From the NCBI GenBank assembly GCA_929200255.1, contig CAKMYZ010000007.1:1-64000 (forward strand): a stretch of DNA of 64,000 nucleotides, in the 5' to 3' direction. Position 1 is the stretch's first letter. Each line of letters begins with the position of its first letter. Positions 1 to 7,010 of the stretch are shown piece by piece. Made by a program: the position numbers and the translations under genes. Source of the DNA: an uncultured Alphaproteobacteria bacterium. GTDB lineage: Bacteria; Pseudomonadota; Alphaproteobacteria; Rhodobacterales; Rhodobacteraceae. The notes below the pieces were generated by a model. That model was not told the DNA's origin, did no database searches, and saw nothing but the letters and a program-made list of their open reading frames with translations.

Positions 1-49
1 TCTCTTAAGTTAAGCTGCCATTGGTTCCAAAAACCCTGACGACGGACAG
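1..49. repeat. IS3-family right-end repeat, copy 1
   Basis: The first 49 bases recur without mismatch at 358-406, where they follow the stop codon of an IS3-type transposase fragment. Read inward from its outer edge the repeat begins TGTCCGTC, as expected for a terminal inverted repeat of this family. Copy 1 therefore looks like the right end of a second IS copy lying mostly outside the window and butted into the transposase gene of the copy ending at 406. Confidence 0.75.
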
Positions 50-331
50 GCACCGTATCACCCGCAAACCCAAGGTAAGATAGAGCGGTGGCATCAGACT
101 TTGAAGAACCGCATCTTGCTGGAGAACTACTTCCTGCCGGGTGATCTCGAAGCCCAGATCGAAGCCTTCGTCGATCACTACAATCATCATCGGTATCATG
201 AGAGCATCAACAACGTCACGCCCGCCGACGTCTACTTCGGACGGGATAAAGCCATTCTACAACAAAGGGAAAGGATCAAACGAAAGACGCTCGAAACGCG
301 ACGCTTGCATCACAGACAACGCGCCGCATAA
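50..331 (+). pseudogene. 3' fragment of IS3-family transposase (OrfB, integrase core)
   Basis: The frame is open from the repeat edge and reads APYHPQTQGKIERWHQ, then a segment typical of IS3-family OrfB C-termini (ILLENYFLPGDLE, HYNHHRYHES, TPADVYFGR). The E of KIERW is the usual third acidic residue of the DDE catalytic triad. About 90 codons survive and the first two catalytic Asp residues are missing, so no active transposase can be made. A TTG at 101 has no claim to be a real start. The stop at 329-331 lies 26 bp before the right-end repeat, a normal distance for this family. Identification as IS3 OrfB is firm; the exact IS name is not known to me. Confidence 0.9.
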
Positions 332-357
332 TCAAACCAACCAGATGAGCCAAACTC

Positions 358-406
358 TCTCTTAAGTTAAGCTGCCATTGGTTCCAAAAACCCTGACGAC
401 GGACAG
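358..406. repeat. IS3-family right-end repeat, copy 2
   Basis: Exact second copy of the 49-base sequence at 1-49. It sits directly downstream of the transposase fragment and marks the right end of that IS. Unrelated coding sequence starts within three bases, so the IS is inserted in, or has deleted up to, the gene that now begins at 409. Confidence 0.8.
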
Positions 407-408
407 TT

Positions 409-741
409 GTGGGACAAAGAGATATTGCGGCATGCAGCGCCAGTTGTCTCTATCGCTTGGAAAGAGCGGCTGCGAAGAAAGATCTGAAAGATGCGATTCA
501 TGTTGCCCTTGAACTCTTATCAGGTGAGGTCAACGTCGGCCTGCGTCTCTTCTACCAAGGCCAAATCATATCCAATCTTAGTCCTTTCGAGGACATGATT
601 GACGATTTCTTAGGTGATCCGAGATTGGCTCACGCGCTCAAGGGGCGTGCGCCGGAGGACTTTACCAATCTGCCTTCTTTGGTTCGATCCAAGTTGGGGC
701 AACTTTTGGAATCGGCTTGCGAGAGGGGGAGAGATAAATGA
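409..741 (+). pseudogene. Unknown accessory protein, probably 5'-truncated by the IS
   Basis: I do not recognise this 110-residue product. The frame runs upstream into the IS end, and the only start (GTG, 409) lies three bases after it with no ribosome binding site, so the visible part is probably the C-terminal end of a longer protein disrupted by the IS. It is soluble, largely helical, with no membrane segment or cysteine motif. Its stop overlaps the start of the next gene (ATGA at 738-741), so the two were co-translated. This arrangement recalls the last genes of multi-recombinase elements (Tn554 type or recombinase trios), where a recombinase-like gene overlaps a small accessory gene. That assignment is inference. 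Confidence 0.5.
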
Positions 742-1223
742 ACGACGAAGTAGCAGCAACAAAACTAGCGCAATACCACCAAGAAAGGAGCAAAGAGGCA
801 CGCGAACGACTCTTAACTGTATTGCGCCAAATTGAGAAAGAACTTGTTCAACATGGATTTTATTGCAGTCCTGGTTCACCGGACCATCCCCGCCGGCTTT
901 CATTGGCAGAGGTCCAACGTCGTGCGGGGCTCGGCAGTTCATTTCTAAGAAACCCGCGCCACCATGACCTTCGTGAGATTGTACAGGACTGGCTATTGGT
1001 TCAACAACGTGATTTTTTGACTTCGAAGAAGCTCGGACAAGAAAAAAAACGTGATAAAATATCATTCTATGAGGACGCGCTAGCGAAGGCCTCTTCGGAA
1101 GCCCAAGCGTGGCTAATTGAAAAAAACCGATTGAAAAATGAGGTGGCCGAGCTCAAGAAGAGACTGGAAATTGCGAGCGGAAGAACCAACGTCGTAACCG
1201 GCAATTTTGACGTAAACAACTAG
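738..1223 (+). CDS. Small HTH/coiled-coil accessory protein of a mobile element
   Basis: 161 residues. Residues 1-40 are a basic helix. Residues 55-85 (RLSLAEVQRRAGLGSSFLRN) resemble a DNA-binding helix-turn-helix followed by an Arg/His-rich turn. Residues 115-150 form a heptad-patterned coiled coil rich in E, K and L (IEKNRLKNEVAELKKRLE). The order N-terminal helix, HTH, coiled coil matches small accessory proteins of Tn554-like and recombinase-trio elements (TnpC/DUF6262 or GmtX type). The resemblance is one of shape and I cannot claim homology. The start overlaps the preceding stop by 4 bp. Base composition is lighter than in the chromosomal genes. Likely role: DNA-binding helper of integration or excision. 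Confidence 0.6.
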   Translation: MNDEVAATKLAQYHQERSKEARERLLTVLRQIEKELVQHGFYCSPGSPDHPRRLSLAEVQRRAGLGSSFLRNPRHHDLREIVQDWLLVQQRDFLTSKKLGQEKKRDKISFYEDALAKASSEAQAWLIEKNRLKNEVAELKKRLEIASGRTNVVTGNFDVNN

Positions 1224-1242
1224 GGTTTAATAGGCCAAACTC

Positions 1243-2412
1243 ATGACACCGGCAGCACGAATTAACGCGGCGATTGACTTGATTGATCGGATACAATCAG
1301 GAGAACTGGCTGACCGTGCGATGGCAAGCTGGGGGCGCAGCAATCGTTATGCTGGCTCAAAAGATAGGGCATCGATTGCTGACATCGTCTACGAAGTCCT
1401 AAGGAAGAAGCAGAGCTTTGCAGTGTTGGGAGGAGGCCAAACTGGACGCGCGCTCCTACTGGGTTTTGTCCGTGCGTCAAAGCAAGACCCTGAGATGATC
1501 TTCGGAGTTGATCGCTATGCTCCGCCTAAGCTTCTTGCAGAAGAACGTATTGCAGAAGAATTGGGGGGATTTGTTGATGAAGAAGTTACGGACTTTCCTG
1601 ATTGGGCTTGGACAGAACTCGTCCGATCCCACGGTGACAATGCTGCGGGGATCGCCGAAGCGTTGAGAAACAGGGCACCAATCTACCTTCGCGTTAACCT
1701 TGCAAAATTGAGCCGTGACGACGCAATAAGTTCGCTCGGAAGCGAAGGAATAATTGGAAAAACTAGCCCTTTGTCACCTTCTGCTGTTGAGGTTTTGGAG
1801 GGTGCGCGGAAGATACGAAACTCATCACTTTTCAAGACTGGTGAGGTCGAGCTTCAGGATGCATCGTCCCAAGCGGTTGCCGACCTTGTTCCTCTTCAAA
1901 CAGGACAAAGACTGCTTGATTTTTGTGCTGGGGCAGGAGGCAAGGTATTGGCAGTAGCAGGGCGCGTCTTGGGAGATTTCTACGCTCATGATGTAGACGC
2001 GCGTAGAATGAAAGACTTGCAGCCAAGAGCTGCAAGAGCAGGTGCGTCCATCGACCAAGTTACGATTGAAGACCTAGCCCAAGGTTCGCAGTTCGACACC
2101 GTTCTAGTTGACGCGCCCTGTTCCGGAAGTGGGTCATGGCGCCGTGATCCACAAGAAAAATGGTTGTTGACTGAGGAAAAGCTTGCACACGTCATCCAGC
2201 TACAATGCGAGATCCTCGACCAAGTTTCCTCGATGGTTAAACCTAAAGGCCATCTAGTCTATGCGACATGTTCTTTGTTTAGCCGAGAGAATGAACTTCA
2301 AACAAAAAGGTTCCTGGATCGCGATGAGACATTCACATTTTCGTCCGAACATCACTTTACGCCCTTGGAGGGTGGTGACGGATTTTATTGCGCGGTTCTT
2401 CGTAAAAATTAG
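1243..2412 (+). CDS. RsmB/NOL1-family rRNA (cytosine-5) methyltransferase, complete, carried by the element
   Basis: 389 residues, normal length for the short alphaproteobacterial RsmB-like branch. The SAM-binding motif I is DFCAGAGGK (226-234). Motif IV is VDAPCSGSGSWRRDP with Cys293, and motif VI is YATCS with the nucleophile Cys343; both cysteines used by RNA m5C methyltransferases are present. The N-terminal 150 residues correspond to the RNA-binding NusB-like and RRM-like part. The gene should methylate C5 of a cytosine in rRNA (16S by analogy with RsmB). Its base composition is clearly lower in GC than that of the resident homologue fragment that follows at 2598, and it lies on the mobile-element side. 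It therefore appears to be a foreign replacement copy. Confidence 0.9.
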   Translation: MTPAARINAAIDLIDRIQSGELADRAMASWGRSNRYAGSKDRASIADIVYEVLRKKQSFAVLGGGQTGRALLLGFVRASKQDPEMIFGVDRYAPPKLLAEERIAEELGGFVDEEVTDFPDWAWTELVRSHGDNAAGIAEALRNRAPIYLRVNLAKLSRDDAISSLGSEGIIGKTSPLSPSAVEVLEGARKIRNSSLFKTGEVELQDASSQAVADLVPLQTGQRLLDFCAGAGGKVLAVAGRVLGDFYAHDVDARRMKDLQPRAARAGASIDQVTIEDLAQGSQFDTVLVDAPCSGSGSWRRDPQEKWLLTEEKLAHVIQLQCEILDQVSSMVKPKGHLVYATCSLFSRENELQTKRFLDRDETFTFSSEHHFTPLEGGDGFYCAVLRKN

Positions 2413-2515
2413 CAAATACAAGTAAGTCTCTCGTGGATGGAGCGGTCGGTAAATTTTGCGACGGGTAGCTTCGTTCAAGGTGCTTGATTTGCGTCTTGGG
2501 ACGGATCAACGAGGT

Positions 2516-2549
2516 CGCTATGAAGCGCAACTTTTTGCGATTCATAGCG
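2516..2549. terminator. Strong hairpin at element end (terminator or recombination site)
   Basis: Arms CGCTATGAAGCGCAA (2516-2530) and TTGCGATTCATAGCG (2535-2549) pair at 14 of 15 positions around a 4-base loop and are followed by TTT. The hairpin lies about 100 bp after the carried methyltransferase gene and about 50 bp before the resident remnant. It could terminate the former's transcript or be part of the element's right attachment end. Confidence 0.5.
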
Positions 2550-2570
2550 TTTCGCCCTTAAAATCAAACT

Positions 2571-3074
2571 ATGCAACGCATTGTGACCCCATGTATCGCC
2601 GGTGGTGGCGGCAAGGCTCTCGCGTTCGCTGATCTGACCGACGCACAGATTTTCGCCCATGATGTTGCCCCCCAGCGGATGGTGGATTTGCCAGTGCGGG
2701 CAGGGGTATCGATCACGCAGGTTCAAACAGCGCAACTCGTTGATCATGCGCCCTTTGACGTTGTTTTCTGCGATGCCCCATGCGGCGGCAGCGGCACTTG
2801 GCGGCGCACACCGGATGCAAAATGGCGGCTGACCGACGCCCGCCTGAACGCGCTTCAACAGATGCAACTTGCTGTTCTGCAGGAGGCCGCACCCTTGGTG
2901 CGTGCTGCGGGTAGGTTGGTTTATGCAACCTGTTCGGTTCTCAACTGCGAGAATGATGATGCGGTCGCGACATTTCTGGCAGCCAATCCTGACTGGGTTC
3001 GCGAAAGCCGTATGCAGCTATTGCCGGACCGCGCCGGCGATGGCTTTTACATGGCAATACTATCGCGCCGGTAA
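2571..3074 (+). pseudogene. Decapitated resident RsmB-like methyltransferase
   Basis: Similarity to RsmB-family enzymes starts abruptly inside SAM motif I (AGGGGKALA, from about 2598) and runs to a normal C-terminus. Motif IV (CDAPCGGSGTWRR) and motif VI (YATCS) are intact, but the whole N-terminal half is missing. Compared with the intact copy at 1243 it also lacks about three residues near the RAG segment, a sign of drift. The ATG at 2571 is fortuitous: the seven or so codons before the motif match nothing. Base use is GC-rich like the neighbours. This is the original chromosomal gene, cut by insertion of the element to its left; the missing 5' half should lie at the element's other end. 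Confidence 0.85.
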
Positions 3075-3199: not shown

Positions 3200-5512
3200 A
3201 TGGATAAACGATCATTCCCAATTGGGTTCCCGCCCGTTCTGCAGATTCTGAGCGCGGGGCTGGTTTGCATCGCATTCTCTGCCATCGCGGAACTGCGTCC
3301 ACTACAACTGGGGCTTGCGGTCTTTGGTGGGACTTTATGCTCTGTTTCCGTCTGGATCGGGATTGCCGCATTGTGGCGCAGGATGATTGGGCGGTGGCAG
3401 CGAGCCAATGCACGACGCATGATTGCCCATGATCTTGGGGCTGGTTTTGTTACCAGTGGTGCCTGCTATGTCGACTATGCCAATGCAGCGGCAAAGGATC
3501 ATTTTGAAACTGCCGAAGGCGTTTGTCTTCCCGATGTGTTTCGACACATGTGGGCGAAACCGCACGGGCTCTTGGATCAACTTGTCCGGAAAGCGGCGAA
3601 GTCGGGCGTGAGTGCCGAAGATATCGTGACCCGCGCGGGCCACTTCCGCCTCCGGGTTTTGTGGGTGGGGCCAGCATGTCAGGTCTGGTGGCTTGATGAT
3701 CTGACCGAAGGCATTCAATCCGCCGCAAGGGGGGCGGATGCGGTACCATTGCCGATGTTGTCGGTTGATGTCGATGGCGCCATCCTGCACGTCAACAAAG
3801 GCGCCCGCGGTTTGCTGGGCGATGGGTGCCAGCAGATCGCTGATGTTTTTGTTGATCTGCCCATCAGATCGGGTCAAAGCAATACGCTGCATGGGGCGTA
3901 CGGGCCACTTTGCCGGTTTGTAGTCGAAGCGCCGGGCCGGGACGACACAACGGATATCTATCTTTTGCCAGAGGCGAAGACACCCAAAGCCCCACCGCAG
4001 CTTGAAGGTGGATGGGATGCGGTCGATGATTTGCCGGTGCCCCTGTTGAAAGTCGCCAATGACGGTCAATTGCTGGCCGCCAATAGTGAAGCACGTGCCT
4101 TGTTGCACATTCCAACCGCGGAAGGGCGCAAATTGTCCGATGTGCTGGATGGACCGGGCCGTCTGATCACCGATTGGCTGGGCGAAGCCCTGGACGGGCG
4201 TAGCGCTAATGTGTCGCAGTTTTTGCGGGTCCGCGGTGCGAGTGAAGATACCTTCATTCAGGTGACGCTTTCTATCGCAGGTGCGCGCAATGATCCCCAT
4301 CTGATTGCGGTCCTCAACGATGTGACCGAGCTCAAAACCCTGGAGTCGCAGTTTGTCCAAAGCCAGAAGATGCAGGCCATTGGCCAGCTTGCCGGTGGTG
4401 TGGCGCATGATTTCAACAATCTGCTGACGGCCATATCTGGACATTGTGATCTGTTGCTGTTGCGCCATGACGAAGGCGACCAGAACTATGGTGATTTGAT
4501 CCAGATTCACCAGAACGCCAATCGCGCAGCCAGCCTGGTGGGCCAGCTTCTCGCTTTTTCGCGTAAGCAGAACCTCTTGCCCGAAGAAATTGACCTGCGT
4601 GATACGATGTCTGACCTGACCCATTTGCTGAATCGACTTGTGGGCGAAAAAGTTACTCTGACACTTGAGCACGACAGTGATCTGCTGCGCATCAAGGCTG
4701 ACAAACGTCAACTTGAACAGGTGATGATGAACCTCGTGGTCAATGCACGTGACGCGATGTCAGGCACGGGCGAGATCAAGATCGTGACCAAGAATTTGTC
4801 TTTGTCATCCGAGATGTCCCGTGATCGGGCTACAGTGCCCAAAGGCAGTTATGTCATGGTGAAGGTTAAGGATAATGGTCACGGTATCCCCCCAGAGACC
4901 TTGGACAAGATATTTGAGCCGTTCTGGACCACCAAACGTCAGGGCGAAGGCACCGGCCTGGGCCTGTCCACGGCTTACGGTATCGTCAAACAGACCGGCG
5001 GTTACATTTTCGTCGAAAGCGAGAAGGGGCGCGGGACGACCTTTACGCTACTCTTCCCGAGTTTGCGGGCCAGCGCTGCGACCCCGATGAAACTTGCCAG
5101 CCCGGAACCTGCGCCAGTGGCGGGCCGCGCCGAGGGTGTTGTTTTGCTGGTCGAGGACGAAGCGCCGGTGCGGGCGTTTGCGTCCCGCGCGCTGCGTTTG
5201 CGTGGATATACTGTGCTTGAGGCTGACTGTGCTGAAGCAGCTCTTGATTTGCTAAGTGATCCTGATCTTGTGGTTGATATCTTTGTGACAGACGTGATCA
5301 TGCCCGGTATGGATGGCCCGACCTGGGTGCGCAAGGCACGCGAGGATCGTCCTACCACGAAGGTTGTCTTTGTTTCCGGCTATCCTGAGGATGCCTTTGA
5401 CGATGGTGAGCCGATGATCGAGAACACGGTTTTCTTGCCCAAGCCGTTCTCTTTGACCGCATTGACGCAGACAGTACAGGGGCAGTTGGCTAAAGAACCT
5501 GAACCAGCCTAA
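3200..5512 (+). CDS. cckA: Hybrid sensor histidine kinase CckA
   Basis: 770 residues from ATG 3200. An in-frame TTG at 3122 is less likely because it overlaps the CtrA-type box. Two membrane segments lie near the N-terminus (about residues 10-60), followed by PAS-like regions. Next come a HisKA domain with the phospho-acceptor in GGVAHDFNN (His near 403), an ATPase domain with [17 protein letters not shown] and GEGTGLGLS, and a C-terminal receiver with the phospho-Asp in [11 protein letters not shown] (near 697). This order, with HDFNN, is the CckA signature. CckA phosphorylates ChpT, which passes phosphate to CtrA; in roseobacters the pathway governs motility, gene transfer agents and cell-cycle functions. 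The gene ends 10 bp from the convergent glk. Confidence 0.93.
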
Positions 5513-6510: not shown

Positions 6511-7010
6511 CTAACGCGCGATGGCCGCTTTGAGCGCGTGATAAGACGCTTTCGGCGTTCGCTTCAAGGTCTCAAAACCCACATGGATATTGCCAAGCTG
6601 TTTTTCATGACCGAAAGCCCATTCGCAATTATCAAGCAGGGACCAGAAAAAGAAGCCTTTCCAATTGGCCCGGTCAGCAATGGCGCGCTTGGTGGCCTGC
6701 ATGTGCTTTGATCCGAATTTCATCTGCACCGGATCATAGACGGTGTCATCCCAGGCCATACCGTTCTTGGTGGTGGCGGTCGGCAGATAACCGACTTCGT
6801 CACGGGCAAGTCGCGTAAGGAACCCGTGGAGCTCATCAGGATAAATTCCCCGGTCTTTCCTGGTTTACCATCTGCCCATCCGGCACCACCCGCGCCCATG
6901 ACGTCAAGAACCGATGGGCATCCATGCCCGCATCTTTGCACAGATCAAGATCTTCACCACCGCAGCGATGCTGATCGCAGGCGACGCGCCCGTCGTCTGC
7001 GCCCGCCTGA
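6511..7010 (-). pseudogene. Decayed GH1 beta-glucosidase
   Basis: Two pieces of a glycoside hydrolase family 1 enzyme remain. The N-terminal piece (about 7010 down to 6860) reads RVACDQHRCGGEDLDLCKDAG and then FLTSWARVVPDGQ, the start of the GH1 barrel, and runs into a stop. The C-terminal piece (about 6845 down to 6511) reads FLTRLARDEVGYLP and then FFFWSLLDNCEWAFGHEK, the conserved GH1 end; the catalytic-nucleophile motif that should read TENG is TKNG, so the nucleophile Glu is Lys. The middle of the barrel with the acid/base NEP motif is deleted and the pieces are in different frames. The gene is dead. It once hydrolysed a beta-glucoside to glucose for the adjacent glk. Confidence 0.85.

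Follow-up and report, generated by a model that had tools for sequence, protein, structure and literature searches.

An insertion bearing mobile-element genes has split a resident RsmB/NOP-family methyltransferase gene within motif I in the Rhodobacteraceae genome studied here (3.6 Mb, 92 contigs), and it carries a full second copy of that gene, as the original prediction had it. The insertion is real and well bounded, and its cargo is an orthologue of its own target. The window, meaning the whole analysed stretch of 64,000 nucleotides, corresponds to positions 1 to 64,000 of contig C7; its left end holds the right-hand part of the insert and the 3' remnant of the resident gene (Table 1). The predicted full 389-residue gene of lighter base composition is an intact open reading frame with a GC content of 0.504 (GC3 0.446), against 0.596 (0.600) for the remnant and 0.634 for the resident 5' half. 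The expected insertion-sequence (IS) and mobile genes on its left side were also present, as IS3-family sequence at about 1–408 and a recombinase-operon tail at 409–1223. The gap before the remnant, given as 180 bp, does exist at a length of 185 bp, and the remnant does keep the C-terminal half only.

Table 1. Features at the left end of the window.
Feature	Coordinates	Strand	Remark
IS3-family insertion-sequence fragments	1..408	+	directly against the truncated recombinase gene
C-terminal tail of gene 3, the third (large) tyrosine-recombinase-like gene	409..741	+	cut at the IS
Fourth operon gene, helper protein, 161 aa	738..1223	+	start overlaps the stop of the 409–741 frame
Carried intact RsmB/NOP-family RNA methyltransferase-like gene, 389 aa	1243..2412	+	
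Right end of the element, non-coding, 185 bp	2413..2597		no DNA match to the G028 locus before 2597
Hairpin within the right end of the element	2516..2549		
Right junction hexamer GCCGGT	2598..2603	+	left-junction counterpart on contig C6 is GCAGGT
3' remnant of the resident gene, motif I Ala-Gly codons to stop	2598..3074	+	81% amino-acid identity to G028
cckA-like hybrid histidine kinase, native right neighbour outside the element	3209..5512	+	start codon approximate

The missing 5' half, which was expected to the left of the insert, was found adjoining guaB at the end of contig C6 by searching the source genome with the intact protein of the congener G028 (residues 1–29 and 99–230 matched). 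G028 also provides the related strain with an uninterrupted gene: guaB, a 3-bp gap, an intact 386-aa gene and cckA follow one another, the shared truncated remnant is absent, and guaB and cckA are 99% and 92% identical to those of the source genome. Specifically, the resident 5' half stops at ...GACTATTGTGCAGGT, and C6 reads ...CTTGACTATTGTGCAGGT followed by 676 bases of unrelated DNA up to the contig end. On the window side, the unrelated DNA stops and ...GCC GGT GGT GGC GGC AAG starts, adjoining cckA; this remnant covers only positions 16–164 of PF01189. The DNA alignment to G028 comprises C6 up to the cut point and the window from 2597 onward. Because both cut points are the same motif I Ala-Gly codons, guaB with the 5' half and the 3' half with cckA flank one insertion, and the match is more than chance since the complementary half on C6 ends at the very same two codons. 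The visible parts of the insert are 676 bp on the left side (C6) and 2.6 kb on the right side (window), with no assembly through the insert. As the cut points match, we infer that the two parts belong to one element.

The junction hexamers differ at one base (GCAGGT on the left, GCCGGT on the right). In SEs and Tn554 relatives, the target hexamer is kept on the left and a donor hexamer is brought in on the right, according to the available part of PMC10214605. GCCGGT was found in 16 of 94 motif I contexts of the fetched loci, some of which overlap, and GCCGGG and GCGGGC in 16 each, so that the three Ala-Gly hexamers are equally common at motif I. The presence of GCCGGT at the right junction fits an earlier stay in another such gene; a 3-bp GGT duplication or one point mutation fits too. 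A terminal inverted repeat (TACTTGGG/TACATGGG) was discarded as evidence, its best match of 7/8 bp being equalled by 2143 of 5000 shuffles, which is chance level. The hairpin in the right end lies about 48 bp from that end and has an outer stem of 9 bp and an inner stem of 5 bp; the whole 188-nt right-end stretch containing it gave a folding z of −2.20. Plasmid searches with the left-end DNA returned only short, scattered Rhodobacteraceae matches. Within the left end, a 223-bp piece (L064 317–539) recurs at 97% identity on contig C36 (L105 553–775); it contains the inverted repeat GCCGAGGCGGGAA and is perhaps a small mobile repeat.

Both halves of the resident gene show limited damage. From the 5' half, 73 codons are lost in frame, possibly since before the insertion, and the 3' half has lost three residues and reads PCGGSG where G028 reads PCSGSG. 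Outside the deletions, dN/dS against G028 was 0.14 for the 5' half and 0.18 for the 3' half, compared with 0.12 for the intact pair G028–G036 (L006). Given these values, decay looks recent relative to the split from G028. Farther right in the window, an 82-aa open reading frame (6511–6759, minus strand) resembles the C-terminal end of a family 1 glycosidase and is perhaps another gene remnant; an apparent full family 1 glycosidase gene was seen near cckA in the congener G050 (L235 4329–5690).

The carried protein matched PF01189 (E 2.3e-31, 109.4 bits against a gathering score of 27) and also PF22458, the former placing it within the RsmB/NOP methyltransferase superfamily. The name RsmB itself is doubtful: the N-terminal part of the profile is absent and the NCBIfam RsmB cut-off was missed (198.5 bits versus 375, positions 146–433 of 434). 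The C3 gene of the same genome also scored below this cut-off (245.8 bits, positions 11–432). Its protein, with the higher score, covers nearly the full RsmB profile, so that RsmB/NOP-family paralogue is a better name for the split gene, and by these profile scores the C3 gene appears to be the better candidate for RsmB, the 16S m5C967 methyltransferase. A PF01189 search of the source genome returned three places, namely the carried copy, the remnant and the C3 gene.

The nearest relatives found of the carried protein are 74–75% identical to it. In a quick tree of 51 rows (11 of 62 candidates were removed by the filter), the carried gene grouped with loci L034, from Pseudorhodobacter aquimaris, and L035 with an SH-aLRT support of 99, and 26 resident-type congeners stood apart (100). 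Moreover, the GC content of the carried gene resembles that of L035 (0.512). Against L034, dN was 0.165 with dS saturated, indicating that the carried gene has been under constraint. At the level of sequence, these comparisons establish the carried gene as an orthologue of the split gene from another Rhodobacteraceae lineage. Its own motif I reads TGTGCTGGGGCAGGAGGC and differs from the target at several bases; as a speculation, this might shield it against self-insertion.

In a tblastn search of all plasmids, the best matches of the 409–741 and 738–1223 frames were adjacent on plasmid pMVF16-3 of Microvirga sp. VF16 (E 4e-4 and 5e-3, with the next best at E 2 and 3); at E 0.001, the helper gene found nothing among the plasmids. 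The Microvirga operon encodes, in order, proteins of 429, 558, 699 (gene 3) and 180 (gene 4) amino acids, of which the first two are above the Pfam cut-off for Phage_integrase and gene 3 is below it (E 8e-4). The product of 409–741 was 30% identical over 92 aa to residues 600–691 of the 699-aa protein, and the helper was 29% identical over 131 aa to gene 4. Additionally, the order of the gene 3 tail and the helper gene, and the overlap between the stop of one and the start of the other, are as in Microvirga. Single-sequence hhalign against Microvirga gave 94.8% for 409–741 and 96.3% for the helper, and five shuffles of the helper gave at most 0.2%. On these similarities, we assign window 409–1223 to the tail of a three-recombinase-plus-helper operon of Microvirga type (unnamed), with a helper protein that we read as a probable helix-turn-helix plus coiled coil. 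Recombinase-operon genes are thus represented on the insert by the gene 3 tail and the helper gene, and the complete RsmB/NOP-type gene begins 19 bp past the latter.

Operon genes 1 and 2 are missing from the window, where the operon is cut at the IS and the contig end. An IS end of about 50 bp is present twice (1–59 and ~353–408), so that one IS3-type copy probably lies within another at 1–408. With an IS3-type element directly against a truncated recombinase gene, the element looks stranded, and it is probably immobile because no further part of gene 3 was found in the source genome with the gene 3 protein as query.

The three-recombinase-plus-helper operon of Microvirga type is rare. Among 394 family genomes, the source genome alone was matched by the helper gene (E 0.001) and by gene 3 (E 0.0001). 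Among 56 genomes of the genus, including the source genome itself, the only other helper match was a weak one in G014 (E 0.0029, 22% identity), inside a 568-aa frame. No helper relatives were found in phages (E 1) or viral contigs, and neither PHROGs nor NCBIfam gave a useful match for 409–741 or 738–1223. Among plasmids, Microvirga genes 2 and 4 matched Microvirga itself only, and gene 3 gave, beyond itself, only matches of at most 39% coverage. Membership of the helper in DUF6262 was rejected, with a Pfam E of 0.37 and DUF6262-type operons in G085 and G804 that are unlike the window genes. The Microvirga operon adjoins a Kiwa KwaB-like gene (L132 8086–9557), and a DNA methyltransferase gene lies further off, which is possible defence cargo.

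The idea of a rescue gene has a published precedent, contrary to the original statement that none was known. Tn552-II, a Tn554-related element, carries tnpABC, a target-gene-like gene (tgl) and bla genes, and its authors suggest that tgl rescues the disrupted gene and refer to similar published data for Tn553 (PMC12486829). As in the window, a recombinase operon ending in a small gene is followed by a homologue of the interrupted gene, and the short att sequence that Tn552-II brings in at its right end may be comparable to the right junction hexamer of the window. Tn552-II differs in belonging to Staphylococcus, with tnpABC, a 7-bp att and a yolD-like target, whereas the window has a truncated operon of the three-recombinases-plus-helper type and an RNA methyltransferase-like target in Alphaproteobacteria.

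GInts (ginABCD islands) encode three tyrosine-recombinase-type proteins and a small TnpC-like protein; like the window element, they have cargo beginning at the end of the fourth gene and occupy sites within conserved genes or at their ends, but the available part of PMC5385486 mentions no rescue gene. In a comparison with the two GInt-like operons of G085 and G804, the window and Microvirga genes had no detectable similarity to them, apart from a weak one between two first genes. These operons (L130 9346–14628 in G085, L131 8698–14981 in G804), found by way of DUF6262, are alphaproteobacterial three-recombinase plus DUF6262-type operons of GInt-like layout. The G085 operon adjoins a ribonucleotide reductase gene and the G804 operon lies at the 3' end of a gene that we take to be ssb, both being target types named for GInts. 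Both occur in Alphaproteobacteria, although PMC10214605, in its available part, reports no ginC-ginD blocks in that class.

According to the same part of PMC10214605, the core genes of SEs are found in Gammaproteobacteria and are absent from other taxa. SEs are like the window element in having an operon of recombinase-fold genes plus a helper, and their 6-bp target copy at one end and 6-bp donor fingerprint at the other may correspond to its two junction hexamers; unlike it, they have no rescue gene in that text. Tn1806-like ICEs split methyltransferase genes, and the available part of PMC12942858 mentions possible compensation by ICE genes. These ICEs are streptococcal, however, and use the DNA methyltransferase or snf2 genes of other ICEs as insertion sites, with no target orthologue described in that text. 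Islands in tRNA genes restore the gene they split by means of a completing fragment (Islander; available part of PMC4383910); the window element instead brings a complete, divergent orthologue and leaves the resident gene in two parts. The organisation of the window element is also that of GInts, SEs and Tn554, and by analogy it may work like them. No RsmB-targeting element was among the papers listed by searches of an open-access library.

The split gene is of a type widespread in the family: among the matches listed, the carried protein was matched in 389 of 394 family genomes, the source genome included (1e-8), and 17 of the 389 best E-values were weaker than 1e-30 and may represent the C3 type only. 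Three matches were present in 15 of the 394 genomes, none with a boundary at motif I; what these genomes have is another full-length copy, additional short fragments, or breaks at other places. Among the genomes and loci checked, these 15 included, no further gene was split at motif I. The proposal that the element targets the motif I codons holds as to the place of insertion, and recognition of those codons does not follow from one split gene. Several candidates were set aside: G011 and G017, apparent truncations just after motif I, each have one gene that is frameshifted; G021, whose two copies lie in two different guaB-cckA settings among the matches listed, is probably a mixed assembly; and G055 is fragmented.

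Among 47 same-genus loci that were typed (46 genomes), seven have a carried-like allele, and in three of these it lies apart from guaB and cckA. In the stretches of these seven congeners, neither the operon proteins of the window and of Microvirga nor two other recombinases had a match (E 0.001). Carried-like alleles with no trace of the operon indicate that the gene can be exchanged or relocated by other means too; the case that an element is needed to bring in a foreign copy is weaker for it. The alleles at L231 9382–10551, L232 9152–10321 and L234 8884–10053 (G015, G051 and G027) lie in one shared neighbourhood away from guaB and cckA, and in G022 (L236) haem ABC transporter-like genes stand beside the carried-like allele, where guaB is expected.

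A trace of the same gene pairing was found in a second genus. In Pseudorhodobacter aquimaris (L034), a helper remnant lies, in the same frame and direction, directly upstream of the methyltransferase gene that adjoins cckA and to which the carried gene is most closely related. It corresponds to the last 54 residues of the helper (39% identity over 46 aa), and its stop is aligned with that of the window helper and lies 18 bp before the gene, compared with 19 bp in the window. The link between the helper gene and the target orthologue is thus present in more than one lineage, collinear within 1 bp. Window 1063–2400 aligned to L034 without a break at 70% DNA identity, from the helper tail through the gene. 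The upstream part alone gave a DNA score of 35, which was reached by 0 of 1000 shuffles; in the same comparison across 27 loci the next best score was 15, and the 26 other loci had no comparable upstream match to the window. The presence of this remnant indicates that the pairing is old and shared and no one-off event. 

The P. aquimaris gene is followed at 200 bp by cckA, and a LysR-type gene, not guaB, lies on its other side. In L035, the gene lies between guaB (345-bp gap) and cckA. A fainter trace stands before the gene there: the last 80 bp before the gene in L035 match L034 (1 of 1000 shuffles), and the L035 upstream region had no significant match to the window (220 of 1000 shuffles). 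The right end of the window had no match downstream of the gene in L034 (908 of 1000 shuffles) or L035 (482 of 1000). The helper and methyltransferase genes have travelled or stayed together in two genera, with the same chromosomal neighbour. The P. aquimaris locus may be a decayed insertion or the source of the element's gene.

The latter possibility belongs to an account that we regard as unlikely, though it deserves the most weight among the alternatives: the element would have picked up the gene as cargo from a Pseudorhodobacter-like chromosome by inserting just upstream of it, and its landing in a homologue would be due to chance or guided by homology, not an evolved rescue. In both P. 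aquimaris and L035, the gene sits at its usual place beside cckA with no recognised resident remnant, which looks like a source. Only one split gene is known, and no methyltransferase is annotated beside the helper gene of the Microvirga relative. Against captured cargo, the cargo is the orthologue of the very gene that was split, it stands directly after the helper as in tnpABC-tgl of Tn552-II, and no other intact copy was found in the genome.

It is far less probable that the foreign copy came by recombination or an IS-mediated rearrangement and that the mobile genes arrived separately. The nested IS3 copies at the contig end would suit such a history, as would the carried-like alleles of the genus, which imply exchange with no visible element. 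However, no IS end is present at either junction, the source genome holds no other match for the first 137 bp of the left end (E 0.001), the cut points on C6 and C7 coincide, and the helper tail and the gene are collinear in two genera. An assembly artefact, in which the resident gene is really intact and C6 and C7 merely end at repeats, is the least credible reading: both contigs do end in sequence repeated within the genome, but only two complementary resident-type halves were found, each beside its native neighbour, and the left junction leads into non-repeated insert sequence.

We consider it probable that an element with a three-recombinases-plus-helper operon split the resident gene and brought the complete orthologue with it. 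Both junctions, the uninterrupted relative and the operon tail show that an integrative element entered the resident gene, whose neighbours are guaB and cckA, at the Ala-Gly codons of motif I, and it carries a full orthologue of the split gene directly after its helper gene. The recombinases would choose this methyltransferase gene as their target and the carried copy would rescue the host, both of which appear likely. Breakage of the operon by the IS and decay of the old gene would then make the swap permanent, and P. aquimaris and L035 may represent later stages, in which the carried gene and a scrap of the helper gene remain. More tentatively, and at slightly worse than even odds in our judgement, a whole three-recombinase element family might use motif I of the RsmB/NOP-type gene as its attachment site and bring, as rescue, a differently coded orthologue that lacks the target sequence; after decay, the carried gene and the helper scrap would stay at guaB-cckA, driving replacement of a conserved gene across genera.

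With the two halves of the broken gene and an uninterrupted relative both available, the locus shows how a conserved gene can be invaded by a mobile element that is nevertheless tolerated. It extends the idea of a rescue gene from a staphylococcal Tn554 relative to Alphaproteobacteria and to a gene of RNA-modification type, and the helper remnant in a second genus provides a marker for finding more such replacements. The element may leave a foreign orthologue as the only copy of its host, and the pairing traced in a second genus suggests that conserved genes can be swapped in this manner.
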